Source: Flavobacteriales bacterium
GTDB taxonomy: Bacteria; Bacteroidota; Bacteroidia; Flavobacteriales; Flavobacteriaceae
DNA: 64,000 nt
Direction of reading: 5' to 3'
NCBI GenBank assembly: GCA_017303755.1
Contig: JAFLBS010000004.1
Location: forward strand, 1 to 64,000
The notes below the pieces were generated by a model. It was not told the DNA's origin. It did no database searches and was given only the letters and a program-made list of their open reading frames with translations. Made by a program: the position numbers and the translations under genes. Positions 1 to 16,151 of the stretch are shown here, piece after piece (position 1 is the stretch's first letter; every line of letters starts with the position of its first letter).

Positions 1-2
1 AA

Positions 3-164
3 TTTGAAGGGCCAGTTTTGTTTACAGGCGGAGGAATTGGAATTGAAGATTCTATTATAACTGTATTTATTTTATTTTCAATAGGTGTTTTTTTATATCA
101 TCGTTCTAATAAAGAAGGTAAAATAATAAAGAGAAAGACTTTAAAAGAAAAGCCGAATCGCTAA
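3..164 (+). CDS. C-terminal fragment of a membrane protein (5' end outside window)
   Basis: An open frame enters from the left edge and stops with TAA at 162-164, giving the last 53 residues of a protein. The fragment has a glycine-rich stretch (GGGIGIEDS) followed by a hydrophobic helix and a basic tail, so it is the end of an integral membrane protein. A glycine-rich loop before a final helix is seen at the end of CPBP-type (CAAX protease-like) proteins, but the piece is too short to assign. The stop codon overlaps the first AAC box of the attC-like site that follows, as is common for integron cassettes. Confidence 0.6.
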   Translation, partial: FEGPVLFTGGGIGIEDSIITVFILFSIGVFLYHRSNKEGKIIKRKTLKEKPNR

Positions 165-319
165 CAACCGTTTTGCACTATTGCTGGGCTTGCGCTTGCT
201 ATTCTCGTCTTCGTGGAAAATAATCTGGAGGCTACAATTCTAACTTTCTAAGAAAATCCGTACTTTTGTTTTGGTCAGTGTTCGTAGCAGCAAATGGTGT
301 AAGCCGCGACACGTTAACG
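159..319 (+). repeat. attC-like cassette junction, site 1
   Basis: Outer boxes CGCTAAC (159-165) and GTTAACG (313-319) frame an imperfect palindrome. The inner left arm at about 171-186 pairs with the inner right arm at about 288-303 (TTGCACTATTGCTG against CAGCAAATGGTGTAA). Between the arms is a loop of about 100 bp shared with the other sites (GGGCTTGCGCTTGCT, CGTCTTCGTGGA, GGTCAGTG). The layout matches integron attC sites (R''-L''-loop-L'-R'), although the outer box reads GTTRRYR rather than the classic GTTRRRY. Confidence 0.75.
244..268 (+). promoter_or_regulatory. Promoter inside site 1 loop
   Basis: TACTTTTG at 261-268 fits the Bacteroidota -7 consensus TAnnTTTG. CTTTC at 244 lies at the -33 position. 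The same two elements with the same 25-bp span recur in sites 3, 4, 6 and 8, always pointing into the next gene. Confidence 0.65.
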
Positions 320-333
320 GCTATTTTAAAAAA

Positions 334-888
334 ATGGATAACATAGACATTAATAATTATTTTTCAGATATTTTGAAATTCTTAAGAAACGAAGATGATA
401 ATAAAATAAATTTGAAAAAAGTATTCCTTTACTTTTTATTTGTCTTAGTTATTATTTCAATTGGCCAAATCAGCGTAAATAATTCTTATAAAACAGAAAA
501 CATAGAAAACGAAAAGTTTATTAAGGATGAAATAAATAGACAAATTATTATTGACACTAATTCAGTTAAATCATCTTATAGTAAAGGAAGCTATTATTTA
601 GTAGTCAAATTAGAAAACGATTCAATTTATCCGATAAATTTAAAAAACTATGAAAATGTAGATAGAATAACAATAAACTCATCAATTGAGAAAAAAGCTT
701 ATGATAAAACATTTGAGATAATTAGCAATAACATTATTTATAAATTTGAAATTTCGGAAATAAGCGATCAAATGTTTCCCACTAGAATATTGGTTTTTTT
801 TGGCACGCTAATGTTTGGGTTAATAGGAGTTCCACTTTGGTTAAATGAAAATGAAAGACAAAAGGAAAAAGAAAAAAAAAGCCGTTAA
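334..888 (+). CDS. Cassette gene: hypothetical membrane-anchored protein, 184 aa
   Basis: I do not recognise the family. The product has a charged N-terminus, a hydrophobic helix near residues 27-47, an extracytoplasmic central part of about 100 residues, a second helix near 155-172 and a very basic tail. The ATG at 334 is preferred because the open frame upstream of it, from 271, only translates the right arm of the attC-like site. The cassette begins GTTAACGGCT (313-322) and ends with the exact complement AGCCGTTAAC (880-889). The stop codon lies inside that end box. It is probably expressed from the promoter in site 1. Confidence 0.75.
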   Translation: MDNIDINNYFSDILKFLRNEDDNKINLKKVFLYFLFVLVIISIGQISVNNSYKTENIENEKFIKDEINRQIIIDTNSVKSSYSKGSYYLVVKLENDSIYPINLKNYENVDRITINSSIEKKAYDKTFEIISNNIIYKFEISEISDQMFPTRILVFFGTLMFGLIGVPLWLNENERQKEKEKKSR

Positions 889-1035
889 CCGTGGTTTTCG
901 CCATTGCTAGGCTTGCACTTGCGTTTTGTCTTAGTGGAAAAACTCAGATATTTTCAATTTTATGTTTCAAATTAATTCAGTAAATTTGTTTGGTAAGTGC
1001 CGGCAGCAACAGACGCAAAGCTACAAACGTTAACG
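883..1035 (+). repeat. attC-like cassette junction, site 2
   Basis: Outer boxes are CGTTAAC (883-889) and GTTAACG (1029-1035). The inner arms CGCCATTGCTAG (about 899-910) and GGCAGCAACAGACGC pair imperfectly. The loop keeps the GGCTTGCACTTGC and TTAGTGGAAAA blocks of the family. Confidence 0.7.
964..988 (+). promoter_or_regulatory. Promoter inside site 2 loop
   Basis: TAAATTTG at 981-988 fits TAnnTTTG. The -33 position holds GTTTC at 964-968, the counterpart of CTTTC in the other sites. It points to the gene at 1060. Confidence 0.6.
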
Positions 1036-1059
1036 GCTATTTTTTCCAATTGAAATCTT

Positions 1060-1671
1060 ATGAGAAACGCAATTATATTAGTGCTTTTATTTTTAATTCT
1101 TTCCACAGGACAAATAATGGAATTAAATTTTCCTATATCACTAAATATTTTTTTAGTTGTTTTAATTTCTACTCTAACAATTTTTTGGGAGTTTTCAGTT
1201 TTAAATAAAGATTTTATATCTGATTTCAAAATTCGTAGTTGTAGTAGGAAATTAAAATTCGGAAGTTTCATCTATGCATTTTTTTTAACAGGCATAATGA
1301 TATATGACAATAAACTGAAAAGCTTATTTTTTATTATTCTTATTATATGGTTGTATCCATTAATTGATATAATAATGGTTTATGTTTACAGAAAAAAGCA
1401 ACCATATACTATTTTTATAAAAGATAACAATTTGATTTTGAACACGCCTTGGAAAAAAGAAAGAGATTTATCTGAATTGACAGAAATTACATTTGATAGA
1501 TTTTCAAAAGATCTAGAACTTAGCTTCAAAACAAAAAGTGATATTACAATACAAACAAAAGAGTACAATAGTAATGAAATTGATAAATTTATTGAAATCA
1601 TTGTAAGCAAATCTGCAAATAATGTTTGCATTCCTAAAAATTACATCTTAAGTAAAGAAATTAGCTGTTAA
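1060..1671 (+). CDS. Cassette gene: membrane protein with possible PH-like domain, 203 aa
   Basis: The N-terminal 110 residues form about four hydrophobic segments. The C-terminal 80 residues are soluble and beta-rich (YTIFIKDNNLIL, then LTEITF and LELSF), a pattern seen in bacterial PH-like domains placed after membrane helices; that assignment is inference. The start ATG at 1060 is 31 bp after the cassette boundary at 1029. The cassette start GTTAACGGCTA and end TAGCTGTTAAC (1662-1672) are complementary at 10 of 11 positions. The stop codon lies in the end box. Confidence 0.75.
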   Translation: MRNAIILVLLFLILSTGQIMELNFPISLNIFLVVLISTLTIFWEFSVLNKDFISDFKIRSCSRKLKFGSFIYAFFLTGIMIYDNKLKSLFFIILIIWLYPLIDIIMVYVYRKKQPYTIFIKDNNLILNTPWKKERDLSELTEITFDRFSKDLELSFKTKSDITIQTKEYNSNEIDKFIEIIVSKSANNVCIPKNYILSKEISC

Positions 1672-1829
1672 CCACAGTTTGCACCAATTGTTGAGCTTGG
1701 GCTTGCTGTTTTCGTCTTCGTGGAGAATAATCTGGTGACTACAACTCTGTCTTTCTCATAAATTTTGTAGATTTGTTTTAGTCAGTGATTTCAGCAGCAA
1801 CAGAGCAAAAGCCGCCGAACATAGGTGGT
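1666..1829 (+). repeat. attC-like cassette junction, site 3 (right box mutated)
   Basis: The left box TGTTAAC (1666-1672) is normal. The inner arms GTTTGCACCAATTGTTG and CAGCAGCAACAGAGCAAAAGC are present. Where GTT is expected the sequence reads ATA (1821-1823), followed by GGTGGT, which still complements ACCACC at the end of the next cassette (2683-2688). The right crossover point has therefore probably been lost by mutation. Confidence 0.65.
1751..1775 (+). promoter_or_regulatory. Promoter inside site 3 loop
   Basis: TAGATTTG at 1768-1775 is the -7 element and CTTTC at 1751 the -33 element. The spacing is identical to sites 1, 4, 6 and 8. Confidence 0.65.
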
Positions 1830-1862
1830 AATTTTAACTCAACGAAACAAAAAAATTAGACA

Positions 1863-2675
1863 TTGAATAAGATATCTGAATTTTCTAATGATAAAATATT
1901 TCTTCGATTATTAAAAAATAAGACGAGTAAAAACTATTGGAAATACATCATTGAACTAAGAAAGCGAAAAACTGAAGATATTTTCTTAAAGTCAATTGAA
2001 TTTACTAAATCCAATATTTCCAATGAGAAAATTATAGGAATAAATATTTTAGCCCAATTTGGTTATCCAAGATTACATTTAAAAGAAATTTTAAGAGTCT
2101 TTTTCAGATTACTCAAAAGTGAAACTGACAAAAATGTAATAAGTTCTTTATTATACGCAATTGGACATAACAATAAAAATTTAACAGAAAAGCAAATTGA
2201 AATAATATGCTCATATAAAGATCACAAAAGTGTAAACATTAGACATAGTGTAGTTTCTTCACTTTTAACTATTGAAAAAAATGAAGCAGTTAATACATTA
2301 ATCAAATTATCTAAAGACAAAGATTCTGATGTTAGGGATTGGGCGACATTCGGACTTGGAACACAAATTGAATTAGATAATGAATTAATTCGTAATGCTT
2401 TATGGGAAAGAATAAATGATAAAGATGAAGGAACAAGATTTGAAGCAATTTCTGGTTTAGTCAAACGAAAAGATAACAGAATTAAAGAAGTTTTAAAAAC
2501 TGAACTTGAAAATATAGATGAATTTGGCTCATTAATTTTGGAATCTATTGAAGAGTTTAACGATGTAGATTTTATAGAGCTTATTGAAAAACAAATTATA
2601 AAGAACAAGAAAACTAAAAAAGTAAATGAGCAGTGGCTTATAAACACTTTAGAAAAACTAAAACAATCCGTTTAA
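1863..2675 (+). CDS. Cassette gene: HEAT-repeat protein, 270 aa
   Basis: The protein is soluble, without signal peptide, and made of tandem helical pairs. Segments such as SVNIRHSVVSSLL and DSDVRDWATFGLG are typical of HEAT/PBS-lyase-type repeats, which form curved scaffolds for protein binding. About six repeats cover residues 50-235. There is no ATG near the start; the likely start is TTG at 1863, since no internal methionine precedes the conserved repeats. It lies in a cassette whose ends share GGTGGT/ACCACC complementarity. Confidence 0.75.
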   Translation: MNKISEFSNDKIFLRLLKNKTSKNYWKYIIELRKRKTEDIFLKSIEFTKSNISNEKIIGINILAQFGYPRLHLKEILRVFFRLLKSETDKNVISSLLYAIGHNNKNLTEKQIEIICSYKDHKSVNIRHSVVSSLLTIEKNEAVNTLIKLSKDKDSDVRDWATFGLGTQIELDNELIRNALWERINDKDEGTRFEAISGLVKRKDNRIKEVLKTELENIDEFGSLILESIEEFNDVDFIELIEKQIIKNKKTKKVNEQWLINTLEKLKQSV

Positions 2676-2684
2676 AAAAACGAC

Positions 2685-2844
2685 CACCAACAGCGATTTA
2701 CACCAATTGCTATCTTGCGCTTGCTATTTTGTGCTTCGTAGAGAATAAGCCAGTTACTACTACTCTATCTTTCTCATAAATTTTGTAGATTTGTTTTGGT
2801 CAGTGTTTGTAGCAGCATCAGACGCAAAGCCGCATACGTTGTAG
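2685..2844 (+). repeat. attC-like cassette junction, site 4
   Basis: Outer boxes are CACCAAC (2685-2691) and GTTGTAG (2838-2844). The inner arms GCGATTTACACCAATTGCTA and TAGCAGCATCAGACGCAAAGC pair imperfectly. The loop carries the CTTGCGCTTGCTATTTTG and GTGCTTCGTAGA blocks. Confidence 0.72.
2769..2793 (+). promoter_or_regulatory. Promoter inside site 4 loop
   Basis: TAGATTTG (2786-2793) with CTTTC at 2769, 25 bp in total, followed by the conserved GGTCAGTG where transcription should start. Confidence 0.65.
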
Positions 2845-2883
2845 GTTATGTTAGCCAAGCGAAAACTATAAAATTTAGAGTTA

Positions 2884-3363
2884 ATGCAATCGAATCTCAA
2901 TATAAATGAATTTAGAAATAGACTGAAGAATTTTACCAAAATTGGACATCCAAAACTTAAATTGAGTCCATTTCCTACTTTTTCAATGTTTGGAGATTCA
3001 TCAAAAAATTTTTACGGTCTTTACGATGATTCTTCTTTTAGTTTAACATCAAATTTCATCATTAATCCAACTTACTTCATTTTAAGAGGTAATTACAAAA
3101 CAATTAACGGTAAGCTGCAAATTCAATACAAACTTTATCCAAGATATAAATATCAAACTCATTGGTGGATTTTTGTATTCGTTTTAGGATTTTTAGTATT
3201 TAATTATCTCTTAGTGAATGATCTACATGGCTCAAAATTAGAAACTATTTTATTCACGAATATAGTTATGATACTCATGATTGGTTATGCATATTTTCAC
3301 ATCACAAGAAAAAGAAGAAAATTGGAGGAAAGCTTTATAAAGATTTTTGAAATAATAAAGTAA
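2884..3363 (+). CDS. Cassette gene: hypothetical membrane protein, 159 aa
   Basis: Unrecognised. The first 95 residues are soluble and rich in aromatic residues. Two hydrophobic helices follow (about 97-112 and 122-140), joined by a short loop, and then a basic tail (TRKRRK). The topology suggests a cytoplasmic N-terminal domain anchored by a helical hairpin. The cassette starts GTTGTAGGTTATGTT (2838-2852) and ends AACACAGTCTACAAT (3373-3387), complementary at 11 of 15 positions. Confidence 0.72.
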   Translation: MQSNLNINEFRNRLKNFTKIGHPKLKLSPFPTFSMFGDSSKNFYGLYDDSSFSLTSNFIINPTYFILRGNYKTINGKLQIQYKLYPRYKYQTHWWIFVFVLGFLVFNYLLVNDLHGSKLETILFTNIVMILMIGYAYFHITRKRRKLEESFIKIFEIIK

Positions 3364-3380
3364 TTAAAAATAAACACAGT

Positions 3381-3521
3381 CTACAATAGCGGTTTATATC
3401 AATTGCTGGGCTTGAGCTGACATTTGGCTTGTTTTCACTAATTCAGTTCGAAAGAAATTCTGTACATTTGTTTTGGTCAGTGATTACAGCAGCAACTGGT
3501 GTAAACCGCGACACGTTGTGT
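3381..3521 (+). repeat. attC-like cassette junction, site 5
   Basis: Left box CTACAAT (3381-3387; final C changed to T) and right box GTTGTGT (3515-3521). This site has the clearest stem. The left arm GCGGTTTATATCAATTGCTG (3389-3408) complements the right arm CAGCAACTGGTGTAAACCGC (3490-3509) at all but two or three positions. The boxes and arms are separated by an unpaired spacer of 1 nt on the left and 5 nt on the right, like the unpaired central spacer of attC hairpins. Confidence 0.78.
3446..3470 (+). promoter_or_regulatory. Promoter inside site 5 loop
   Basis: TACATTTG (3463-3470) is a good -7 match. The -33 block is GTTCG rather than CTTTC, so the upstream element is weaker here. Confidence 0.55.
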
Positions 3522-3542
3522 GTCATATTAGAAAAACCCGAA

Positions 3543-4604
3543 ATGGACAAAAAAATAAAATTGATTTACCTATTACTCATATTGACCCTGAACTTTTCTT
3601 GTGTTGAAAAGAAATCAACAGAAAAAGAAACCAACAAGCCTGAAATGGTAGCGACTTCAAAAACCGACACCTTAAAATTTACTTCCGGAATACGTGCTAT
3701 TCTTCAAGATCATAAAGGCAATTATTGGATTGGAAGTCATAATGAAGGCGTAAGCTATTATAATGGAGAGTCGTTTGAATACTTTACAACCAATGAAGGT
3801 TTATCTGACAATCAAATCCGTTCAATCCAAGAAGACGAGAATGGAAAAATTTGGTTTGGAACTGCAAAAGACGTTAGTGTATATGACAAAGGAAAGTTTA
3901 CCACTTATTCAACAAATTTTAACAACCCAAGATATGAATGGAATGAAACCAATGGGGATTTATGGTTTTATGCGGGTGAAGAAGACGGAATAAATCGTTT
4001 TGACGGTATAAATATGAACTATTTAATTTTTCCAAAACCCAAAAATGAAAATCCCAATAATGCTTATGGTGTAACGGATATATCAAAGGATAAAGACGGT
4101 AAAGTTTGGATTGCGACTTATGCAGCACTATTCAACTTTGATGGTAAAATGGTAAATATCGTTGATAATGAAAAATTAAACTTAAAAGAGAATGAGTTTT
4201 TACACATCAGAAGCGTATTAGCCGACTCAAAAGGACGGATTTGGATAGGAAATAACGGGATTGGCGTACTACTAAAAGAAGATGAAATAACAATTAATTT
4301 TTCTGAAAAGCATCATTTAATTCATCCAACTAGTACAAGACGAGGAGATAAATCACAACCAGGCACAATGGAACACGTTTTTGCAATTGAAGAAGATAGT
4401 GAAGGTAACATTTGGTTTGGAGATAGAGATACTGGAGCTTGGAGATTTGACGGTAAGACTATGAAAAATTATACCCTAGAAAAAAATCTCAAATCTCCAA
4501 TGATTTGGACAATTTATAAAGACAAGAATAACAGTTTGCTTTTTGGAATGGCAGATGGAAATATATTTAAGTTTAACGGAAAGACTTTTGAAAAGCAATT
4601 TTAA
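3543..4604 (+). CDS. Cassette gene: lipoprotein with two-component-regulator-type propeller repeats, 353 aa
   Basis: The ATG at 3543 starts a lipoprotein signal peptide with lipobox FSC at residue 20. The open frame upstream of it only translates the attC arm. The rest is repeated blades of the Reg_prop type (IRAILQDHKGNYWIGS, IRSIQEDENGKIWFGT, IEEDSEGNIWFGDRD), which normally form the periplasmic sensor propeller of hybrid two-component systems. Here no kinase domain follows, so it is a free-standing surface propeller, perhaps ligand-binding. It resembles the gene at 6482. The cassette ends GTTGTG (3515) and CACAAC (4617-4622) are complementary. Confidence 0.82.
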   Translation: MDKKIKLIYLLLILTLNFSCVEKKSTEKETNKPEMVATSKTDTLKFTSGIRAILQDHKGNYWIGSHNEGVSYYNGESFEYFTTNEGLSDNQIRSIQEDENGKIWFGTAKDVSVYDKGKFTTYSTNFNNPRYEWNETNGDLWFYAGEEDGINRFDGINMNYLIFPKPKNENPNNAYGVTDISKDKDGKVWIATYAALFNFDGKMVNIVDNEKLNLKENEFLHIRSVLADSKGRIWIGNNGIGVLLKEDEITINFSEKHHLIHPTSTRRGDKSQPGTMEHVFAIEEDSEGNIWFGDRDTGAWRFDGKTMKNYTLEKNLKSPMIWTIYKDKNNSLLFGMADGNIFKFNGKTFEKQF

Positions 4605-4615
4605 AAAACACGAGC

Positions 4616-4776
4616 CCACAACCACAGTTTACACCAATTGCTGGGCTAGCGCTTGCTATTTTGTTTTTCGTGAAAAATAAGCTGGTTATTACAATTCCAT
4701 CTTTTAAAGAAATTCAGTAAATTTGTTTGGTCAGTGATTGCAACAGCAACAGATGGCAAGAATGGTAACGTTAGCA
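4616..4776 (+). repeat. attC-like cassette junction, site 6
   Basis: Outer boxes are CCACAAC (4616-4622) and GTTAGCA (4770-4776). The inner arms CAGTTTACACCAATTGCTG and CAACAGCAACAGATGGCAAG pair imperfectly. The loop keeps the TAGCGCTTGCTATTTTG and TTTTCGTGAAAAATAA blocks. Confidence 0.72.
4701..4725 (+). promoter_or_regulatory. Promoter inside site 6 loop
   Basis: TAAATTTG (4718-4725) with CTTTT at 4701, in the same 25-bp arrangement. Confidence 0.62.
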
Positions 4777-4802
4777 GAAAGTTTATCCAAAAAACCGCAA
4801 AT

Positions 4803-5384
4803 ATGAAATCTGAAATAAAATATATAGAATTAAAATCTGGATTTAGTGATGATGGACCAGCATGGATTGGACTTGTTTCATTCTCAAAAAGTGGAAAAAC
4901 AATCTATTTTGATGGAAAAGCGTTTAAAAGTTTGAATGGAACAGGAATTTCAGGAAATTATTATGAAATTGAATCTGGAGATGAATATTGGATTTCTGGT
5001 GTCAAAAAAAATCAAAAAGACAGACATACAAACGGTGGTGGAAAAATTTATGTTGAAAAAAGAATTCTAAATGAATATCTAAAAATAATAAATCTACAAA
5101 ATCTGAATCTTAGGCTTTATGAAATTATTGAAGTTGATGAAGAAATTCCAGTTTCAAAAACAAATGAATTAGAAAATCAAAAAATTGATAATTCTGAAAT
5201 TAATGATGATAAGAGATTTCTAAAACCCAACGAAATGAATGATGAAGAATTAGAATACTTTATCAATTATTATAACGAAAGTTCTATAAATGGAAGATAT
5301 TTGAAAGGTCGAAAAATGTCCCGGAATCAAATGAATGAATTAATAGCTGAAAAGGAATTGAGAGAACAAAAAAACTTCTGCTAA
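4803..5384 (+). CDS. Cassette gene: hypothetical soluble protein, 193 aa
   Basis: There is no signal peptide or membrane helix. Residues 1-95 look like a compact beta-rich domain (KYIELKSGFSDDGPAWIG, KSGKTIYFDGKAF, EYWISGVKKN). Residues 96-150 are a charged linker, and the C-terminus is helical and basic. I recall similar N-terminal domains among small Bacteroidota proteins of unknown role, but cannot assign a function. ATG at 4803 is chosen because the frame upstream (from 4734) lies in the attC arm. The cassette start GTTAGCAGAAAGTTT (4770-4784) and end AAACTTCTGCTAAC (5372-5385) are complementary with a single one-base gap. Confidence 0.75.
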   Translation: MKSEIKYIELKSGFSDDGPAWIGLVSFSKSGKTIYFDGKAFKSLNGTGISGNYYEIESGDEYWISGVKKNQKDRHTNGGGKIYVEKRILNEYLKIINLQNLNLRLYEIIEVDEEIPVSKTNELENQKIDNSEINDDKRFLKPNEMNDEELEYFINYYNESSINGRYLKGRKMSRNQMNELIAEKELREQKNFC

Positions 5385-5502
5385 CACATGTTTGCCACTA
5401 TTACTGGGCTTGCGCTTGCTGTTTTCGTCTTCGTGAAAAATAATCTGATAGCTACAATTCTGTCTTTCTAAGAAATGTTGTAGATTTTTTAGTCAGTGTC
5501 CA
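5379..5502 (+). repeat. attC-like cassette junction, site 7, right half missing
   Basis: The left box TGCTAAC (5379-5385), the left arm (TTTGCCACTATTACTGGGC) and most of the loop are present. Similarity to the family ends shortly after AGTCAGTG at about 5500, so the right arm and GTT box are absent. The -7 element also reads TAGATTTT (5481-5488), one base off consensus. This marks a break in the array. Confidence 0.65.
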
Positions 5503-5762
5503 TAGTTTCTTTAAAAAGAATTATTGTGATTTAGTATTAAAAATTAGCAATCCTCTCTATTCGGCAACAATAACTTGGTTTTTAACATTGAATCCAAGTT
5601 TAACTAACCGCTCCCAAGTCGTAAAAAAGTACAGGGATTGTTTTAATAACTATTTTTTACGATTAATTTACAAAATTTACATTTTTATTTACAATCCAAA
5701 TCACTCCGCACAGAAAATATCAAATTAAATTCGCAAAAACAATTTAATAGAATATGCAACTT
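5503..5762 (+). other. Intergenic segment after truncated site 7
   Basis: No gene of the + strand is visible. On the - strand an open stretch of about 30 codons (5557-5649) reads as a plausible protein C-terminus (WERLVKLGFNVKNQVIVAE, then TAG), but it has no start codon and a stop directly upstream. It may be a remnant of a deleted gene. The segment has no attC-like sequence. Confidence 0.3.
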
Positions 5763-6311
5763 ATGAAAAAAAACATCTATTTACTGATCTTACCGCTGGC
5801 TGTTGTAAGCGGACTAGTATTTACTAATTGTGAAACTAAAAATCAAACTAAACCATCTCAAAAAACGTTATCCATTGCTAATAAAAAAGTCAACATGGAT
5901 GAAAGAAAAAAATGGGAGGCTTCTCCAGATGGTATAAAGTACAAAGAATGGGAGGCTTCTCCTGAAGGAAAAAAAGTGCGTGCCAGTCATGATAAAATAA
6001 GAAAGAACATAAAGGACTTTTCCAATATGGAGGCCGTGGTTACCTCTGTTACTTTTCAGCGAGCAAACTCGAAATCATCAGGGCCAAAATGGCTTATTGT
6101 CAAGATTAATGACGAAGAATACATGATGCAATTTATTCCTAAGGAATTTCAACAGTTAAAAAACCTGAAAGTTAACGACAAAATAATTGTAAGAAGCCGC
6201 AGCGCAGGGTATTCGCCTAATCATCCCTATTTGATTATATCGGGTGACTATATTGCACAAAATAATAAAATCCTTTTTAAACGTGACTTTAGCAAAAATA
6301 AGGGTTGCTGA
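5763..6311 (+). CDS. Hypothetical lipoprotein, 182 aa
   Basis: Start at the ATG at 5763, where the basic-hydrophobic signal begins; an in-frame ATG at 5754 would add three residues. The lipobox reads LVFTNC. Residues 45-70 contain a near-repeat (WEASPDGIKYK, WEASPEGKKVR). The C-terminal 110 residues look like one small beta-barrel domain (VVTSVTFQRA, WLIVKIND, VNDKIIVRSRSAGY), resembling an OB-fold; this is inference. It sits between the truncated site 7 and a poorly conserved spacer, so whether it was ever a cassette is unclear. Confidence 0.7.
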   Translation: MKKNIYLLILPLAVVSGLVFTNCETKNQTKPSQKTLSIANKKVNMDERKKWEASPDGIKYKEWEASPEGKKVRASHDKIRKNIKDFSNMEAVVTSVTFQRANSKSSGPKWLIVKINDEEYMMQFIPKEFQQLKNLKVNDKIIVRSRSAGYSPNHPYLIISGDYIAQNNKILFKRDFSKNKGC

Positions 6312-6481
6312 AGTTTAAGTGACTTGCGATTAACGACTTCCCGAAGCTTAGCTATTGTCGATGAAAACAGGAATTAAATCGGGCTCTAACTTCTCAAAAA
6401 TCGCTAATAAATGTTCCCAGAATCTCTCGTAGAGCCAATGGAAAAAGTATGCGTGTGTATTAAATTAAAAACTGAAAAAGA

Positions 6482-7573: not shown

Positions 7574-7582
7574 AACTTAAAA

Positions 7583-7738
7583 TACTAACACTAAACTGTA
7601 ATTGCTGTTCTTGTGCTTTCTATTTTTTCTTGGTGTGTAATAAGTTGTTTGATACAACTCAATCTTTCTTATAAATTTTGTAGATTTGTTTTGGTCATTG
7701 ATCAATCATGCAACTGATACAAGCCTCATACGTTGGCG
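7583..7738 (+). repeat. attC-like cassette junction, site 8
   Basis: Outer boxes are TACTAAC (7583-7589) and GTTGGCG (7732-7738). The inner arms AACTGTAATTGCTG and CATGCAACTGATACAAGC pair imperfectly. The loop has drifted (CTTGTGCTTTCTATTTTTT) but keeps the promoter block. Confidence 0.68.
7664..7688 (+). promoter_or_regulatory. Promoter inside site 8 loop
   Basis: TAGATTTG (7681-7688) with CTTTC at 7664, in the same 25-bp arrangement. It points to the gene at 7782. Confidence 0.65.
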
Positions 7739-7781
7739 GAAATATTACTCCAAAAAAAACGAAAAAATACAGAATCTATTT

Positions 7782-8876
7782 ATGGAAGAAAGTTTAAAAA
7801 CTTACGAAAAAAATATTGAAAAAAAACACAGCTTTGGTTGGAATCCAAAATATGAAGAGGAATTTAGAACTAATTTAAATGAAAAAGTTTTTATACCTAT
7901 TACAGAAAAGACTATTGAAAAACTTGATTGGGATTTAGTTTTTAAAGATGATAAAAACATAGAAGCAAAAAGAAAAGAAAGCAATTTCGGAATCGAGAAA
8001 TGGACAGAATCTATCACAATATCATATAGGCATGGAAAAATTAATGTAAAAAGTGAATCTTTGGGAAATGAAATGTGGGATAATGGTAGAAACTCAAAAA
8101 GAGTAAAATTGTTTATTCACTCATTTAAGGAAACTGAAAAAAGTTTTGACAAAGAATCGCTTGAAAAATTAGAAATTGAAGTAGAAAGAAAAAATAATTG
8201 GGATGATTATGTTATTCCAGAAATTTTGCCAAAACCAAATAGAATAAAAAAGCCAAATTTTGCAATTCCATTAATTGGCGGATTTTTCACATCAATTATT
8301 TTAGCCCTTATTTTAGCAAAAGTTTCTGTAAGTGGAGGTTACATAATTGGTTTATTTGAACTTTTGGTTGCAATTGCAATAGGTTTTTCTTTAAAATATC
8401 TCATCAAGTTTTCAAACTTTACAGAATTTTTAAAACTAAAGTATTTATTAATTGGAATGATCGTTCTAATTTATGTTATGAATCAATATTTCCAATATGA
8501 AATAATATTAAGAGAAAACAACTATGAACGTATTGGATTTTTTGAATTTATTAAACTACGATTTGAACAAGGATTGACAATTAAAAAACTAAATACAGGT
8601 TGGATTGGTTTAATTATTAGTTGGGGATTACAAATTATATTAACCTACTACGTTGGATTACTTAGGCTTATCACAAGCATTACTTCATATCAATTAGAAA
8701 GAATTCCGACAGAAGTTGTTGATTTTGCATTTTATCATTTTGTAAAAGAAAAAACAGAAGAGCAGGTTAGAAATGAATTAAAAAATAAAGGTTGGACAGA
8801 AAAACAAAATCAAGATGAAGTTTTTGAAGCCATTGAAGCAATTTATGGTGCAAATGAACTGAATCGTATGAAATAA
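7782..8876 (+). CDS. Cassette gene: hypothetical multi-pass membrane protein, 364 aa
   Basis: Residues 1-165 are soluble, charged and beta-rich (VFIPITEKTIEKLDWDLVFKD, ESITISYRHGKINVKSESL). They are followed by four hydrophobic segments (about 170-300) and a helical C-terminal tail containing EEQVRNELKNKGWTEKQ. I do not recognise the family. The ATG at 7782 is preferred; the frame upstream (from 7686) covers the end of site 8. The cassette start GTTGGCGGAAATATT (7732-7746) partly complements the decayed end AATACTCCTGCAAA (8877-8890). Confidence 0.72.
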   Translation: MEESLKTYEKNIEKKHSFGWNPKYEEEFRTNLNEKVFIPITEKTIEKLDWDLVFKDDKNIEAKRKESNFGIEKWTESITISYRHGKINVKSESLGNEMWDNGRNSKRVKLFIHSFKETEKSFDKESLEKLEIEVERKNNWDDYVIPEILPKPNRIKKPNFAIPLIGGFFTSIILALILAKVSVSGGYIIGLFELLVAIAIGFSLKYLIKFSNFTEFLKLKYLLIGMIVLIYVMNQYFQYEIILRENNYERIGFFEFIKLRFEQGLTIKKLNTGWIGLIISWGLQIILTYYVGLLRLITSITSYQLERIPTEVVDFAFYHFVKEKTEEQVRNELKNKGWTEKQNQDEVFEAIEAIYGANELNRMK

Positions 8877-8878
8877 AA

Positions 8879-9034
8879 TACTCCTGCAAAAAGTGGTTTT
8901 TGTTCATTATTGGATAATACTTGACTTTTTGTCTTCGCTTTAATTCTGATTGCTCAATTACACATTTAATTAAAATTTAGTAGATTTGTTTTACTCAGTA
9001 TTGCCTGCAATAACTGATGCTTCCCATATTCAGT
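8879..9034 (+). repeat. attC-like cassette junction, site 9 (degenerate)
   Basis: The arms GTTCATTATTG and CAATAACTGATG are still complementary, and the -7 element TAGATTTG (8981-8988) is intact. The left box has lost AAC and the right box reads ATTCAGT (9028-9034) instead of GTT. The element is recognisable but probably inactive for recombination; promoter function may remain. Confidence 0.55.
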
Positions 9035-9058
9035 AGTTAGTTTTAAAATGTTGCAACC

Positions 9059-9538
9059 ATGAAAAATTTGATAGTATTAATTCTTCCTTTTATTCTTATT
9101 TCTTGTTCAAAAAAACAAGATATAGAACAATTAACTAGAGATAATGAGATATCAATATACACTTATGGCGCACCTTGGGAAGATCAATTTGAAGCTTATT
9201 TTAACCCGACTGAAGAGTCTATTGATACATTGTATGTTTCAAAACTTGAGAATAGCAAGGGAAAAGAAATTAAATCGTTAAAAAAAATTAAATTGAAGCC
9301 AAATGAAATTGATTCTCTTTACAACTACTTTCAAAAAATTAAAAATAATTTTAAGATCGATAATAGGAAAACTCGTGTAATGGATGGAACTTCAGTTGGT
9401 ATTTCAATAAGAAATAGTTGTGCTTCACTATCGTTTTCATACAAAGGTTTGGACAAAGCGGAAAACGCTGATCCAGAAATAGGGAAACTCATCAAATTTA
9501 TAAATATAAGATTACCCAAAGATTTTCAAATGTATTGA
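9059..9538 (+). CDS. Cassette gene: hypothetical lipoprotein, 159 aa
   Basis: The ATG at 9059 starts a short lipoprotein signal with lipobox LISC at residue 16. The mature protein of about 144 residues is charged and has no recognised domain. Its upstream promoter would be TAGATTTG in site 9, about 70 bp before the start. Unit ends ATTCAGTAG (9028) and GTATTGAAAT (about 9531) are only roughly complementary, consistent with decay. Confidence 0.7.
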   Translation: MKNLIVLILPFILISCSKKQDIEQLTRDNEISIYTYGAPWEDQFEAYFNPTEESIDTLYVSKLENSKGKEIKSLKKIKLKPNEIDSLYNYFQKIKNNFKIDNRKTRVMDGTSVGISIRNSCASLSFSYKGLDKAENADPEIGKLIKFINIRLPKDFQMY

Positions 9539-9690
9539 AATGAAAGATTTATCGCAATAGCTAGACTTGTGCTTGATAACTATACAGCACAAGCAGATTT
9601 TGTTTTCATCGAAATAATTTGGTAATACAACTTTACTTTTCAAAAAAGTGTAGCTTTGTTATGGTTTGTGTTTGAAAATCAATAGTAGTA
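9533..9690 (+). repeat. attC-like cassette junction, site 10 (degenerate)
   Basis: It is recognisable by CGCAATAGCTAGACTTGTGCTT at its left side (9551-9572), a loop ending in the -7 element TAGCTTTG (9651-9658), and the downstream GTTATGGTTTGTG block. The right arm has diverged (ATCAATAGTAGTAC) and no GTT box is evident. Confidence 0.45.
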
Positions 9691-9751
9691 CAAAACCACA
9701 AAAAATAACTACAACTCTAAAAAATTCGCACTAGTAAAAACGCTCTTGAGT

Positions 9752-10408
9752 ATGAAAAAATTAAATTTATTCTTCTACTGCTTGACAATCATTGTCATTA
9801 TTAGTTGTAATTACAAGGAAGAAAAAAAACTAACTGTGAATGAAAATACAAGTGGTAAACAAATAAATACTGACAGTATCGAATTAACAAAACTAATCAA
9901 ACAAGTTTATAAATGGCATAATGAAAAAACATTAGAAGACTTTCCATACAAATATCACGAAAAGCAAGACAGTATTTTTGTGGGAATTGATTGGGATAAG
10001 TATCAAGATAATATTGAGTATTTTAAACAGACAAAGTTCTTCAGTAAAGAATTTCTGAAAAAACATAAAGATATTGCTACAGCATTAGATACTTCCATAA
10101 AAAGAGCAGACATAAGTTGGCGGAATATCAATGATGGAATTCCAATCTGGGAAACAGGAGCCGATAATTGGTGTGGTTGCCAAGATTATCCAGAAAAATA
10201 TTGGACTATGCTAACGATTGATAGTTTAATCATAAATGGGAATTTTGCAGACTTTATTTGGACTTGGGACAAAAGTTCATCTCATAATTACAAAGTAATA
10301 GCTAAAAAAGAAGATGGAACATGGAAAATAAATTCATTAGATGGATTTAAACACTTCTACACAGTTGAAGAATATGACAAAATAATGAAAGATGAAACAG
10401 TAAAATAA
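9752..10408 (+). CDS. Cassette gene: lipoprotein, possibly DUF3828-like, 218 aa
   Basis: The ATG at 9752 is used; a TTG two codons earlier is less likely. The lipobox is IISC near residue 19. The mature part contains a helical N-terminal region (LTKLIKQVYKWHNEKTL), a paired-cysteine motif (WCGCQDYP) and a C-terminal segment NYKVIAKKEDGTWKINSLDG. This layout, with a short helical start and a final W-x-I strand, recalls DUF3828/NTF2-like lipoproteins, but that is inference. The 116 bp after the stop hold only faint site-like sequence. Confidence 0.7.
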   Translation: MKKLNLFFYCLTIIVIISCNYKEEKKLTVNENTSGKQINTDSIELTKLIKQVYKWHNEKTLEDFPYKYHEKQDSIFVGIDWDKYQDNIEYFKQTKFFSKEFLKKHKDIATALDTSIKRADISWRNINDGIPIWETGADNWCGCQDYPEKYWTMLTIDSLIINGNFADFIWTWDKSSSHNYKVIAKKEDGTWKINSLDGFKHFYTVEEYDKIMKDETVK

Positions 10409-10524
10409 AAAAAGTAGCGTCTAAAAACCATAGTCAACACTCAGCTTACACTTTTGTTTTCTTTCCAATGTACTAAATTAATTCTGCATTTCTGTTTAGC
10501 GTTCCTCTGATAACAAAAACAAGT

Positions 10525-10764
10525 ATGAAATTGAATTTAACTCTTTTAATCAAACTTATTATCCTAGAAATTTTATACTTCTATACTGCTTTTTTTGGGC
10601 TTGGATTATTTTTGTTTTTAAACTTTGGCTCTGGAGCTGGAGCTTCAAGTGAAAAAGCAATCTTATTTGGAAAAATAGCGATTTACTTTGTCGTCTTTCC
10701 TCCTATTCTTTACACTATTTTCAAAATGTATTCTTATAAAAAAAAGGAAAAATTTTGGAATTGA
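10525..10764 (+). CDS. Small membrane protein, 79 aa, possibly frameshifted at its 3' end
   Basis: Two hydrophobic helices (about 5-32 and 50-67) surround a glycine/serine-rich loop, followed by a basic tail KKKEKFWN. Just before the TGA (10762-10764) the next frame stays open to 10841 and encodes another hydrophobic helix (SNLIAGILIAIFITYNYY). The native protein may therefore have had three helices, with one base gained or lost near 10,755. Function unknown. Confidence 0.55.
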   Translation: MKLNLTLLIKLIILEILYFYTAFFGLGLFLFLNFGSGAGASSEKAILFGKIAIYFVVFPPILYTIFKMYSYKKKEKFWN

Positions 10765-10839
10765 ATAGTAATTTGATTGCTGGAATATTAATTGCAATTT
10801 TTATAACTTACAATTACTACAGTGGTTTTTTAGGTTCAT

Positions 10840-10985
10840 AGTAAGTAATGTTACTAATTTTGGTTTATCAATTTCCGAACTAGCAATGCCGTTTTTATTT
10901 ATAAAATTGGTTGATTGTTATTAATCTATGTTTCAAAGAAATATTGTAGCTTTGTTAAGTGTTTACAGTAACTTATGTAACTACG
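10840..10985 (+). repeat. attC-like cassette junction, site 12 (degenerate)
   Basis: GTAAGTAATGTTACT at the left and CAGTAACTTATGTAAC at the right are complementary. The -7 element TAGCTTTG (10947-10954) is followed by GTTAAGTG, a variant of the family's GGTCAGTG. Outer boxes are not evident. The promoter may drive the gene at 11043. Confidence 0.45.
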
Positions 10986-11042
10986 CAAATACTAAACAAT
11001 ATTCTAAAATAATAAGATCAAGAATTCAAATTAATTATCAAA

Positions 11043-13121
11043 ATGACAAAAAAAATAGTCTTCCTAACTCTATTATTAGCAAGTTTTAATCTATTGTTCT
11101 CTCAAACAAATTGGGAATTATTAAACCCTAAACCAACTCCAAATACTGGAAGAAATATTGAGTTTGTTTCAAACAATATTGGCTATATAATAACATCTAA
11201 TGAACTACTCGAAACCGTAGATTCTGGTTCAACATGGCTAAAAAAACAAAACATAAACAGTGGTAATGATATTAGTATTAAAAATGGTGTTGGTTATATT
11301 GTTGGAAACAACGGATATGTCTTAAAAACAATTGATAATGGAGCTAGTTGGCAACAAATTTCTACCGGATTTTATACTTCTTTTAATACTGTAAATATTA
11401 TAGATACTAATACAATCATTTTTTCCAGTTCGTATGGTCTTGTTAAAACTATTGATGGAGGTGCTACGTGGTCAAGTATCAATATTTCTGGTGTAACTAT
11501 TGTCAAAACGGCTTTCACAAGTTCTTTAGTAGGACATGCAGTTTGTGCCAATGGTAGAATACAAAAAACAATTGATGGAGGATTAAACTGGTACAATACT
11601 TACAGTACCAATATATTTCCTTCAAATTTTTTAACCGTTCATTTTATCAATCAAAATGTTGGTTTTGCTTCAAGAGAACATGACAATCTATTTAAAACTA
11701 CTAATGGAGGCGAAACATGGACTGAAATTTTAGGCTCTTTTCAAGCTATTTATGATTTTCACTTTTTAAACGAAAATAATGGTTTTGCTACTGGTGATCA
11801 TGGAGCAACATATAAAACAACCAATGGTGGAGCTACATGGAGTCAAATATTTTTCCAAAATGGATACATCTACAATACTGCTATGTATGGGATTTTCTTT
11901 CACGATAATAATGTAGGTTTTGCTACTGGTGCACGCGGACGAATAATCAAAACTATAGATGGAGGAAACGCATGGATGCAAAATTCTCTAACCTACGATG
12001 ACTTTCGACAATTACAAATAGTAAACAATACTACTGGATTTGCTCAAACTGGCAGTCATTTTTATAAAACCACTAATTTTGGTGACACTTGGGCATTGGT
12101 TGGTTCTATAAATATAGGAACTTCCGTTTCAAGTGGTGATTTTACATTTGTAAATGAAACGTTAGGTTATGCAACTTCAAGTGGAACTTATGGCGGGCAT
12201 GTTTTCAAAACAACTGATGGAGGTGTATCATGGACAATATTAAATAATGGTTTAGATATTATAGATGAAGGTATCACTTCTATTCATTTTTTAAATAGCA
12301 ACACTGGTTTTATTTCAGGTGGTTATAATCAGAAAAAAGTTATGAAAACCACTAATGGAGGCATTACTTGGACTCAGGTATCAAATCAAATTTTTGGAAA
12401 TATTCAATTTGTTAATTCGCTTGTAGGTTATGCCAATCGAATTGGAAATTATTATGGAGCAATGTATAAAACCATTGATGGTGGTACAACATGGAATATG
12501 AGCATTGAATTGGAAGGAGAAGATATAAATTCTTTCCATTTTCTTGATGAAAACAATGGCTACTTTGTTGGCGATGATTCTTTATTCTACAAGACAACTG
12601 ACGGTGGAACAACTTGGCAACAACTCACAGTTCCTTATGGTTATTATACTTTGACCAAATTTTATTCAACCGATATTGGATACATTGTAGACGAAAACGG
12701 TGTAATCTATAAAACTGAAAATGGAGGAGAAAACTGGGTTCAAATCGCAAGCCAAAACTCAATAAACTCAATTGAACTAGTTGATAATTATGTTTTTACA
12801 GCTGGAACAAATGGTAAGATATACAGAAGTTATACAGGAATTCCGGTTTTAAATACAACAGATTTAGAAATGAATCAACAAATTTCTGTTTATCCAAATC
12901 CAACTTTTGATTATTTAAATATAAAATTAGATGAGAGTAATCAATTAGAATCTTTCGAGTTGTTTGATTTAGAAGGAAGAATTTTTTATCCCAAAATCAT
13001 TGCAAAGACAAATGAAAATATAAAATTAGATGTATCACATTTTTCAACAGGCTTTTATTTTCTAAAATTAAACTTTACAAACAATAAATCTTCAATGAAA
13101 AAAATACTCATAAAAGAATAA
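11043..13121 (+). CDS. Secreted BNR/Ycf48-type repeat protein with type IX sorting domain, 692 aa
   Basis: Signal peptide at residues 1-20 (ends LLFSQT). Residues 20-600 are about a dozen repeats of a propeller blade carrying the motif KTTDGGxTW (TTNGGETWTEIL, TIDGGNAWMQN, TTDGGTTWQQL), typical of BNR/Ycf48-like photosystem-assembly-type propellers in Bacteroidota exoproteins. The last 80 residues (VYPNPTFDYLNI ... GFYFLKLNF ... KKILIKE) are a type A C-terminal domain recognised by the type IX secretion system, so the protein is exported and attached to, or released from, the cell surface. It is unusually large for a cassette cargo and may be outside the array proper. Confidence 0.88.
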   Translation: MTKKIVFLTLLLASFNLLFSQTNWELLNPKPTPNTGRNIEFVSNNIGYIITSNELLETVDSGSTWLKKQNINSGNDISIKNGVGYIVGNNGYVLKTIDNGASWQQISTGFYTSFNTVNIIDTNTIIFSSSYGLVKTIDGGATWSSINISGVTIVKTAFTSSLVGHAVCANGRIQKTIDGGLNWYNTYSTNIFPSNFLTVHFINQNVGFASREHDNLFKTTNGGETWTEILGSFQAIYDFHFLNENNGFATGDHGATYKTTNGGATWSQIFFQNGYIYNTAMYGIFFHDNNVGFATGARGRIIKTIDGGNAWMQNSLTYDDFRQLQIVNNTTGFAQTGSHFYKTTNFGDTWALVGSINIGTSVSSGDFTFVNETLGYATSSGTYGGHVFKTTDGGVSWTILNNGLDIIDEGITSIHFLNSNTGFISGGYNQKKVMKTTNGGITWTQVSNQIFGNIQFVNSLVGYANRIGNYYGAMYKTIDGGTTWNMSIELEGEDINSFHFLDENNGYFVGDDSLFYKTTDGGTTWQQLTVPYGYYTLTKFYSTDIGYIVDENGVIYKTENGGENWVQIASQNSINSIELVDNYVFTAGTNGKIYRSYTGIPVLNTTDLEMNQQISVYPNPTFDYLNIKLDESNQLESFELFDLEGRIFYPKIIAKTNENIKLDVSHFSTGFYFLKLNFTNNKSSMKKILIKE

Positions 13122-13202
13122 AATTAGGATTGCCTTATATGTGTTAGTGGTAATTTTTACCTCTAAACATTAAAATTTTAAAAAACAGAAAATTGCACTA
13201 AA

Positions 13203-13778
13203 ATGCAAACTAATCAAATCGAGAAAAAGCTTGATAAGAAGCATTATAAAATCAGTATAGGATTAATGATTTGTGGTGTAATATTCTATTTTTTCATTAA
13301 ACCAATAACAATTGGTCACGATATTAGATATTCAATTTACATATTTTGGCTACCCACAATTATTGGAATGTTTGCACTTGGATTATATCGTAAAAACTTC
13401 CTCATACAACGTTTTACATCAAAAAAGGCAATTGGTTTATTTATTATTGATGCATTCTATTTTCTAGTTCAGGGAATCATTTTCTCCTATTTAAGTTTCG
13501 GACAATTAGCAAGTATTACTTGGGAACTATTAAATTACAACGAAGCCAAACAAAATCCTCAAGAAATTATTGAATGCGATGTAGAACGCTTTTGGGTAAA
13601 AAAAAATCCAACAATAGATTTTAAACTTGACAACAAAAGTGAAAGGCTTAAAGTAAAGTACTCTGAAATCGAAATGTATTCAGAAGAAAATCCAACAGAC
13701 TATAAAATTGACATTAGAGTTCATAAAGGAATATGGAATCATTATCTCGTTGAAGATTTTGAAGTCAAAAAAAGATAA
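13203..13778 (+). CDS. Hypothetical membrane protein, 191 aa
   Basis: Three hydrophobic helices lie in residues 18-108, followed by a soluble tail of about 80 residues (IIECDVERFWVKKNPTIDFKLDNKSERLKVKY). I do not recognise it. The spacer before it contains GTTAGTGGTAATTTTTA (about 13,144-13,160), which partly complements AAAAACTACTAC just after the stop, hinting that this too was a cassette. The site after it is truncated. Confidence 0.68.
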   Translation: MQTNQIEKKLDKKHYKISIGLMICGVIFYFFIKPITIGHDIRYSIYIFWLPTIIGMFALGLYRKNFLIQRFTSKKAIGLFIIDAFYFLVQGIIFSYLSFGQLASITWELLNYNEAKQNPQEIIECDVERFWVKKNPTIDFKLDNKSERLKVKYSEIEMYSEENPTDYKIDIRVHKGIWNHYLVEDFEVKKR

Positions 13779-13784
13779 AAACTA

Positions 13785-13870
13785 CTACTCTATCTTTCAA
13801 TGAAATTCAGTAGTTTTGTTTCGACCAATGCCAGCAGTTACCGCTGACATGAATAAGCCGATTCTTGGCA
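13785..13870 (+). repeat. attC-like junction, site 13, left half missing
   Basis: CTACTCTATCTTTC, TAGTTTTG (-7 element, 13811-13818) and CAGCAGTTACCGCTGAC match the loop and right half of the other sites, while the left box and left arm are absent. It is the last family member and marks the right edge of the array. The promoter could drive the gene at 13894. Confidence 0.6.
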
Positions 13871-13893
13871 CTACTAATTGAAATCATGTGAGT

Positions 13894-14688: not shown

Positions 14689-14764
14689 CTTTTTTTAACT
14701 TCTCTTTAAAATAAGTGTAAAAAATTATTGCTACACTTGTAATTCAAGTATAACAACTATTAAA

Positions 14765-15529: not shown

Positions 15530-15587
15530 TTTGGCTATAATTTAATCTTTAAATTCTTCTAATTTTTAAGCTTCCATCTTTCCATCG

Positions 15588-16151
15588 ATGAAAAAAAGAA
15601 CCATAATCAACTCGAAAATCTGTTTCTTTATATCATTAATTGTAATAATAGTAACCATTTTAAGCGTTTGGTTTTATGGTATCGGGAAACATCATACCGT
15701 AATTGAAAATTCGTTCTTCTCTACTTCCATCCTGTCCATTTCATTTTTTCTATTTATATCGATTGGATTGTACAACGGAATAAAATTAAAAGATAATCTG
15801 GGGAAAATAACGGACACTATTAATTTTGAAAAATTAAATTTTTTAAAAAATTTCACCCCAAGTGAACCTTTTGATTTTGACGAAATTGAAGGCGTAATCT
15901 TAAGTATTGTCTTATGGTTATTGGCTTCTATTTTTTTTGGGTACATCCTTTTTGCTTTCAGTGCTGTAATCTGGGTTACTATACTAACTTTTGGTGCTAT
16001 GTTATATTGGATTTTCTACCGAGCATTGCGATTGGTTTTTAAAAATGCTTCCGAATGTAATGGCAATCTTATCAAGAGTTTAATGTATGGTTTGGGATAT
16101 ACATTGGTGTACAATTTTTGGATTTATTTGATAATTGCTGCGGTAAGTTAG
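15588..16151 (+). CDS. Hypothetical membrane protein, 187 aa
   Basis: Four or five hydrophobic helices: two near residues 10-65, a soluble stretch with acidic residues (SEPFDFDEIEG), then helices at 100-150 and a final one at 165-185. No motif was recognised. Confidence 0.65.
   Translation: MKKRTIINSKICFFISLIVIIVTILSVWFYGIGKHHTVIENSFFSTSILSISFFLFISIGLYNGIKLKDNLGKITDTINFEKLNFLKNFTPSEPFDFDEIEGVILSIVLWLLASIFFGYILFAFSAVIWVTILTFGAMLYWIFYRALRLVFKNASECNGNLIKSLMYGLGYTLVYNFWIYLIIAAVS

Follow-up and report, generated by a model that had tools for sequence, protein, structure and literature searches.

A very probable integron-like cassette platform with its own tyrosine recombinase in the Flavobacteriales

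The window analysed here comprises bases 1-64,000, forward strand, of contig JAFLBS010000004.1 (C10 below) in the 4.07-Mb, 15-contig genome of a Flavobacteriales bacterium (assembly GCA_017303755.1). Its left end carries a series of genes on one strand that are separated by long imperfect palindromes resembling the attC sites of integrons. This series is very probably the far end, now partly decayed, of an integron-like cassette platform on the chromosome that is served by a dedicated tyrosine recombinase. Sites were searched for with a covariance model, R1, built from 58 sites (5 from the window), and with an iterated nucleotide profile (nhmmer); the genus sample used for comparison includes Flavobacterium species.

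Sites and cassettes of the window

The sequence-only reading had described about 14 genes separated by a recurring palindromic element. R1 over the 64-kb window recovered eight sites, all on the forward strand between 162 and 7735 (E 4.5e-9 to 0.0012), and the description is borne out to about 7.7 kb, but from 8.9 to 13.85 kb only partial nhmmer matches were seen, none of which R1 recovered in its search of the window. R1 gave one more match up to E 1 (8314-8421, E 0.16), which falls within a gene and probably arose by chance. In the list below, E-values of sites are from R1 unless stated otherwise, and box pairing is that between the right box of one site and the left box of the next.

162-316, forward: attC-like site 1 (E 1.3e-7); crossover between G313 and T314, the TTAACGG belonging to the next cassette
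314-1029, forward: cassette A; gene 334-888 without Pfam match; box pairing of site 1 with site 2, 6/6
886-1032, forward: attC-like site 2 (E 9.2e-9)
1030-1821, forward: cassette B; gene 1060-1671 without Pfam match; box pairing 5/6 to the next site, 6/6 within site 2
1669-1824, forward: attC-like site 3 (E 6e-5); right box decayed, GTT to ATA
1822-2838, forward: cassette C; HEAT-repeat gene 1863-2675 (HEAT_2, 2.3e-11) with TTG as start codon; box pairing 6/6 allowing for the decayed GTT, 2/6 in the unmoved register
2688-2841, forward: attC-like site 4 (E 5.9e-6)
2839-3515, forward: cassette D; gene 2884-3363; box pairing 4/6 (6/6 with G-T pairs), also 4/6 within site 4
3384-3518, forward: attC-like site 5 (E 1.7e-8)
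3516-4770, forward: cassette E; gene about 3543-4604, regulator-propeller protein (Reg_prop, 1.3e-29); box pairing 4/6 (5/6 with G-T pairs)
4619-4773, forward: attC-like site 6 (E 4.5e-9)
4771-5384, forward: cassette F; gene about 4803-5384; box pairing 6/6 with site 7
5382-5523, forward: attC-like site 7 (E 0.0012); right half lost, nhmmer match ending at 5502
5524-7732, forward: cassette remnant or remnants between sites 7 and 8; genes 5754-6311 and 6482-7573 (Reg_prop, 3.1e-39, in the second)
7586-7735, forward: attC-like site 8 (E 0.00061)
8928-13847, forward: decayed distal part; partial nhmmer matches at 8928-9020, 9547-9675, 10867-10972 and 13778-13847 (E 7.9e-5 to 2.2e-8)

The cargo of the window thus consists of HEAT proteins, regulator-propeller proteins and unknowns, with Reg_prop repeats in two genes (3543-4604 and 6482-7573). 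The relic part also encodes a 692-amino-acid (aa) protein (11043-13121) with many KTTNGGxTW-type repeats, assigned to repeat family D5 and others. A scan of positions 1-16,000 with Rfam gave one chance match only, and a strict de novo detector of chained sites found 0 sites in the window and recovered only parts of the known arrays.

By eye, with the words counted, each site runs from a left arm AAC-A-GCGG-TTT... to a right arm ...AAGC-CGC-(4-5 bases)-CGTT and forms a hairpin of about 117-157 nucleotides (nt), with an unequal spacer of 1 by 5 nt and, in many right arms, an extra base (both by eye). A total of 149 distinct sites were collected, and 58 of the 85 listed were aligned. Changes on both sides were observed for 16 of 17 stem pairs, as is characteristic of an imperfect hairpin of the attC type, in which structure is better conserved than sequence; stem cells were paired in 84.4% of cases compared with 28.7-40.9% when slid, a level reached by 0 of 500 shuffles. 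The covariation on which the initial proposal of a hairpin depended is therefore present. The loop, described as long and conserved, is so among the window sites but differs between arrays. Two imperfections of the stem are conserved: a T.G pair at columns 10-144 in 49 of the 58 sites, and a non-pair with an invariant A (its partner mostly C) at columns 19-134 in 55 of 58. On the opposite strand they read A.C and T.G. The conserved T.G/A.C imperfections may mark the reacting strand, by analogy with the extrahelical bases of known attC sites (PMC2727003).

Beyond these sites, open reading frames (ORFs) started at a median of 40 nt past the crossover. The loop frequently contained TAnnTTTG, presumably the -7 promoter element of Bacteroidetes, which 69 of 151 sites had on the coding strand, against 11.8 predicted from shuffled sequences and 5 on the opposite strand, in a set whose members share descent and are not independent.

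In integrons, the bases to the right of the crossover go with the following cassette, whose own site holds their complement. Accordingly arranged boxes can be seen by eye in the window, where the right outer box of site 1, GTTAACGGC, complements the left outer box of site 2, GCCGTTAAC. Pairing was scored on the six bases adjoining GTT or AAC for six successive window pairs, with site 3 read in the ATA register, one base further on. Right boxes matched the left box of the next site at 31 of 36 positions by Watson-Crick pairing (35 of 36 with G-T pairs) compared with 17 of 36 within a site, and this was equalled by 2 of 720 permutations. AAC left and GTT right boxes are thus present, as had been reported, but rather than framing a single site they pair mainly with the neighbour across the gene. 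The window was scored apart and gave only one pair, its other matches being without boxes in register, to a larger set of 84 adjacent pairs from 13 loci. There, the mean was 5.35 of 6 to the next site (60 pairs perfect) and 2.54 within sites, and the total of 449 compares with 310 for the best of 10,000 within-locus shuffles. Similarly, in the array of another genome, G073, 233 of 250 pairs matched the next site at all six bases, compared with 16 for pairing inside a site. Because the box pairs with the next site across the gene, the moving unit, as read from these sequences, is box-gene-site, cut at G/TT (the slash marks the crossover), as integrons predict.

The base after GTT was A or G in 401 of 401 boxes, GTT itself having been required for site placement and three of an initial 404 boxes, cut by an end, having been dropped. 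The classical integron R box consensus, GTTRRRY, was found in 3 of the 401. Of the outer box given earlier as GTTRRYR, only GTTR proved fixed, the remaining bases being private to each cassette. These boxes also bear on the idea that the palindromes are non-autonomous inverted-repeat elements, like miniature inverted-repeat transposable elements (MITEs), which lie between genes without conferring cassette mobility. Repeated palindromes in one orientation between genes would look much the same, but MITE-like elements would not have an outer box that is specific to one gene and finds its complement on the far side of that gene, a gene and site common to two species as one unit (described below), or arrays that begin behind a recombinase. 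The box pairing and the shared cassette refute this idea, to which we give almost no credence.

Recombinase and attI-like site

The window begins at base 1 of contig C10, so that the platform falls outside it. We found a platform in this genome at the end of a second contig, C12 (positions are those of locus L016):

L016 1019-2773, reverse: tyrosine recombinase gene
L016 near 985: attI-like G/TT
L016 288-956, reverse: first cassette gene
L016 122-275, reverse: attC-like site

The order is a nadC-like gene (by eye), the 584-aa recombinase pointing toward the contig end, a short spacer, the first cassette and one site. This cassette begins TACTAG/TTATGCAACATAAT, and the left box of its site is ATTACGTTGCATAAC. 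We infer that C12 and C10 are parts of one array. Two further attC-like sites were observed on other contigs of this genome, at L018 5473-5627 (G000:C8) and L019 5066-5217 (G000:C6); they resemble each other and window site 7, and are perhaps cassettes inserted off-platform, remnants, or more ends of a broken array.

The same layout was found in other genomes. Among 35 loci with a recombinase and sites, 31 had a start box G/TT behind the recombinase that matched the first site found, at its left box. In eight of these loci (L047, L048, L050, L051, L059, L072, L105 and L106, with L072 and L106 being scaffolds from a single strain), the 34 bases before the crossover hardly vary and end in GATATTTACTAG, while differing cassettes follow the TT. 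The distance from the recombinase stop codon to G/TT was 33-48 bases in 17 of 23 loci with a long form of the enzyme; the others gave 201, 87, 136, 59, 719 and -1, the 719 (L115) looking like an ordinary site. For a short form it was 89-204 bases (8 loci). Judged by position and conservation in these sequences, the G/TT site behind the recombinase is the attI. Besides, of ten array regions that had been fetched without prior knowledge of a recombinase, seven had one upstream in the same direction, and in an eighth (G045) it lay just past the stretch; the complete short recombinases of the array regions have 347-352 aa. Draft contigs stop within about 300 bases of the recombinase match in L067, L074, L079, L080, L081 and L087, as expected if repetitive arrays break assemblies, in which case array sizes in drafts would be underestimates.

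The residues R428, K453, H518, R521, H544 and Y553, which we take to be catalytic, were invariant in 24 long forms. The N-terminal extension is about 75 aa in the short form and about 290 aa in the long form. Weak matches to DUF5710 were found in the long-form N-terminus in 8 of 28 proteins (E up to 5, best 3.1e-6), above the Pfam cut-off in L112 and at the cut-off in L115. These modules may resemble those of HARP; no HARP family was among the family matches.

Between the KDR and HxxR motifs, the array recombinases compared have 63-67 residues, as against 105 in L152, the one true IntI of the class sample, and 63-76 in other Xer-like proteins. When the recombinase of the window's genome, P0001, was aligned with VchIntIA (2a3v), the match broke between query positions 470 and 495, with 24 residues versus 66 in IntI; the XerA structure 5hxy aligned through P0001 unbroken. 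On these alignments, the array recombinases measured are without the IntI-specific I2 insertion. In a phylogenetic tree, separate supported clades were formed by the long forms, by the short forms of the main type and by the G222/G073 type. The array recombinases grouped with IntI, XerA-like and Treponema proteins, to the exclusion of three further recombinases from the genome of the window (98/99). The tree has long branches and gives no firm branching order for IntI and the array recombinases. It omits L159 and L160, in which the recombinase is truncated or interrupted, as well as L130, L142, L144, L145 and L147; L111 (with a reported stop), L120 and L125 were left out of A3.

These proteins might simply belong to an ordinary integron, with a canonical I2-bearing IntI and GTTRRRY attC sites, that was merely left unannotated. 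The layout of recombinase, attI, cassettes and attC is the same; the integron integrase family TIGR02249 is the best NCBIfam match of P0001 (213.8 bits); L155 and L150 exceed the cut-off of NF040815, which NCBI names "site-specific tyrosine recombinase/integron integrase"; and the AAC of the right box has a G next to it, a feature of most attC sites (PMC2727003). Set against this, all six array-type recombinases scanned (five and P0001) fell below the TIGR02249 cut-off of 265, compared with 428.5 for a true IntI of the class, and among 295 Bacteroidia genomes only one exceeded it. The I2 region is missing, GTTRRRY is as rare as noted above, and recombinase, attI and cassettes all run in one direction. 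We therefore regard an ordinary integron as unlikely and favour a platform of integron type with a recombinase of its own.

Distribution and movement of cassettes

A covariance-model search of flavobacterial genomes, proposed at the outset, matched sites in 211 of 249 Flavobacterium genomes (E <= 1e-4), with at most 13 candidates scored per genome. Sites are thus far commoner than the long-form recombinase, which was detected in 23 of the 249 at E <= 1e-100, the window's genome among them. For co-occurrence, 121 genomes were taken (G000-G120) under the same limit of 13 candidates, and unlisted genomes were taken as site-free. One short-form query matched 55 of the 121 at E <= 1e-70, none of them among the 8 with the long form. 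At least five sites were present in 49 of 63 genomes with either form compared with 17 of 58 without (Fisher p 8e-8, which is a guide only since the genomes are related). The other short type served as query for a second search of seven site-rich non-carriers; at 1e-30 it matched in G073, beside its array, and in G059, elsewhere. Two short recombinases were seen in G199 (contig C1, 975444-976415, reverse, and 1681359-1682321, forward), with same-strand sites near each.

This co-occurrence, though imperfect, is relevant to a further explanation, namely that modules of XerCD/dif type are shuffled by the host Xer at dif-like sites, the neighbouring recombinase being a bystander. Array recombinases do share with XerA/XerC/XerD-type enzymes the core sequence, the KDR-HxxR length and the unbroken alignment with 5hxy, and the attI-like site is short and AT-rich. 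Xer recombinases, however, act at one dif site. The array recombinases have N-terminal extensions, are linked to cassette arrays with many sites, and fall in clades distinct from three further tyrosine recombinases encoded in the same genome as the window; moreover, where dif sites are short, the array sites form long hairpins that covary. We consider host Xer activity slightly less likely still than an ordinary integron, and a dedicated recombinase remains our preferred explanation.

Among 84,980 species genomes scanned, 79 loci with the long form or its core were kept, from Flavobacterium, other Flavobacteriales, Prolixibacteraceae, other Bacteroidales, Schleiferiaceae and Ferruginibacter; relatives with the core only occurred in Treponema, a Firmicute and bacteria of the Candidate Phyla Radiation (CPR). 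Phages gave no match at 1e-40. In a class-wide sample of 395 genomes, most matches were to the C-terminal core only, and near full-length matches (query start at or before position 83) were found in 6. From matches in 90 of these genomes 20 regions were chosen, several of them cut by contig ends; a gapped-arm detector was run on 7, and 13 were judged by the strict detector alone. Arrays obeying the same box rule were found in 4 of the 20 (L163, L166, L175 and L180), in other families of Bacteroidia. Repeated elements also lie behind the recombinase in the Prolixibacteraceae loci L110, L112 and L115, with the same layout in L112 and L115. On plasmid NZ_CP041688.1 of Chryseobacterium sp. SNU WT5 (L212, 6845-12700), a short recombinase annotated "site-specific tyrosine recombinase/integron integrase" precedes a set of sites that by eye conform to the box rule; one 137-nt site is present here in three copies, which agree in the left box and differ in the right. 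Site searches behind Treponema and CPR relatives were empty in L133, L135, L137, L139 and L141, and single matches were found in L131, L136 and L140. Lone sites of similar layout near recombinase relatives were noted at L131 5873 (Firmicute), L140 14982 of the reverse strand (metagenome-assembled genome of Peregrinibacteria) and L148 3462 (other Bacteroidia); these could be chance or reflect a wider distribution.

The largest array was found in G073, a single contig of 3,464,207 bases. It contains 255 profile matches, all 255 on one strand, from 3,075,979 to 3,254,358 (178 kb), and a short recombinase gene (3,074,350-3,075,375) ends about 600 bases before the first of them. This is larger than the Vibrio cholerae superintegron. 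Pair counts use 251 of the 255 matches. Cassettes had a median length of 650 bp, and the longest ORF was forward in 224 of 250, as in a same-strand cassette array. The motif TAnnTTTG was all but missing here (1 of 251 sites). Identical cassettes were found far apart, numbers 136 and 239 matching over 730 bp at 100%.

Cassettes were also compared between loci. Among 116 cassettes from 35 loci, nine pairs matched over more than 80% of their length. For example, F. celericrescens (L048) and F. piscinae (L077) have a 1,526-bp cassette in common at 99.7% identity; identity between their recombinases is 64%. The neighbours of this cassette differ on both sides, and its identity stops 13 bases past each G/TT, within letters common to many sites. 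F. silvisoli (L045) carries two cassette types in two and three places, 88-95% alike and with different neighbours, and G240 (L050) has a 613-bp cassette in tandem duplicate (100%). Shared and repeated cassettes with other neighbours mean that gene order is not fixed, and the first cassettes behind near-identical attI-like letters differ as well; a fixed order would have spoken against the sequence-only reading. Natural variation between and within genomes thus points to site-specific movement of single cassettes.

Cargo was diverse. A scan of 110 cassette proteins gave Pfam matches at 1e-3 to 40 families, and 19 of the 25 families listed were matched by one protein each. They include HepT-like, FRG, CdiI immunity, DinB and TPR families and outer-membrane barrels; PADLOC models matched in the cargo include PD-T4-3, PDC-S15, PDC-S43 and a TIR effector.

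Interpretation and relation to known integrons

The proposal of an integron-like array with attC-type sites is supported by stem covariation, the box rule and the differing cassettes behind the attI-like site. As far as sequences can tell, the platform layout, G/TT junctions, cassette-wide box pairing, a cassette common to two species, a conserved attI-like site and conserved catalytic residues are all in place. The system would work much like an integron, yet its recombinases are without I2 and its boxes do not follow GTTRRRY. We propose that the tyrosine recombinase encoded just upstream of the array, in the same direction, catalyses the reaction. Circulating cassettes would be inserted as circles at the attI-like site shortly behind its stop codon and would be moved between attC-like sites, with strands exchanged at the G/TT step of the R box. 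A cassette would consist of the TTR-box, gene and site, and closure of the circle would join its own box halves into an inverted repeat on the hairpin. The site would presumably react as a folded single strand, and a promoter in its loop may drive the next cassette.

Several observations weigh against this interpretation. Damage is seen in sites 3, 7 and 8 of the window, and the stretch past 7.7 kb is a relic; the window copy may therefore be partly dead. Of the six window boxes scored, those of sites 2 and 4 find an equally good or better partner within their own site. Six of the 63 recombinase carriers have no site at all and, conversely, the 17 non-carriers mentioned above have at least five; five of the seven searched again gave no recombinase at 1e-30, and that of G059 is off the contigs with listed sites. 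A second Chryseobacterium plasmid, NZ_CP094530.1 (L213), has the recombinase, and no site was found on it. Single-strand folding, which had been suggested as a check on the bottom strand, showed that both strands fold but without clear preference, the bottom being more stable in 69 of 119 sites (mean -22.0 versus -21.4 kcal/mol). Finally, the case is built from sequence, and its comparisons are between species.

Sedentary chromosomal integrons with IntI, such as the Vibrio superintegron, are the closest known systems. They have in common with the flavobacterial platforms a recombinase gene, attI, a same-strand array, hairpin attC sites and the G/TT crossover, as well as box identity carried by the cassette, repeated cassettes and sizes up to hundreds (255 sites in G073). 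In contrast, the flavobacterial recombinase is without I2, scores below the IntI cut-off and points toward the cassettes, with attI behind its stop; the R box is GTTR and then free; and the sites have conserved T.G/A.C imperfections, the 1-by-5-nt spacer (by eye) and, in many loops, the promoter-like TAnnTTTG.

Integrons are a main device for bacterial gene capture and shuffling. Surveys place them mostly outside Bacteroidetes (PMC9024848), although Bacteroidota or the Bacteroidetes/Chlorobi group is named among integron-bearing phyla (PMC8618304, PMC9668308, PMC2426708). The IntegronFinder 2.0 survey gives one complete integron in Bacteroidetes proper, that of Salinibacter ruber M1 (PMC9024848), which belongs to the same phylum in the wide sense and was found by IntI and attC models. 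The main text of that survey does not mention flavobacterial arrays, and integrase-less clusters may be listed in its tables or supplements. Also, the word Flavobacter is absent from the main text of PMC8618304, PMC8352920, PMC9024848 and PMC2426708, although some other papers contain it together with integron, among them one on class 1 integrons (PMC3382206). No description of these arrays was found by searching open-licence PMC papers, which leaves preprints and most subscription papers aside. The flavobacterial systems seem to have been overlooked because their enzyme is without the part that defines known integron integrases. A reservoir of this size (sites in 211 of 249 genomes; one array of 255 within 178 kb), in which the cargo is largely unknown and includes a few defence-like genes, would shift where cassettes are sought.

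How the I2 domain and attC could be selected before one another has been stated as a puzzle (PMC4792948). I2-less arrays of integron type, which are now open to testing, bear on this puzzle. A broader proposal, which we make tentatively and to which we give a little less than an even chance, is that Bacteroidia hold a large unrecognised world of integrons whose integrases never had I2. Several recombinase clades, the long one with DUF5710-like N-terminal modules and two or more short ones, would serve the same kind of site. Hairpin cassettes would either predate I2 and IntI or have arisen beside them, and sites would be recognised through the T.G/A.C imperfections and perhaps the long-form N-terminal modules. 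Many sites would have their own outward promoter, and no single cassette promoter (Pc) would be needed.

The sole canonical IntI of the Bacteroidia sample was observed at locus L211 of G388:C40, where the stretches of interest are about 2164-2295 and 3592-4530. R1 finds no site at this locus; a candidate attC lies upstream on the opposite strand, which would be the classical divergent layout.

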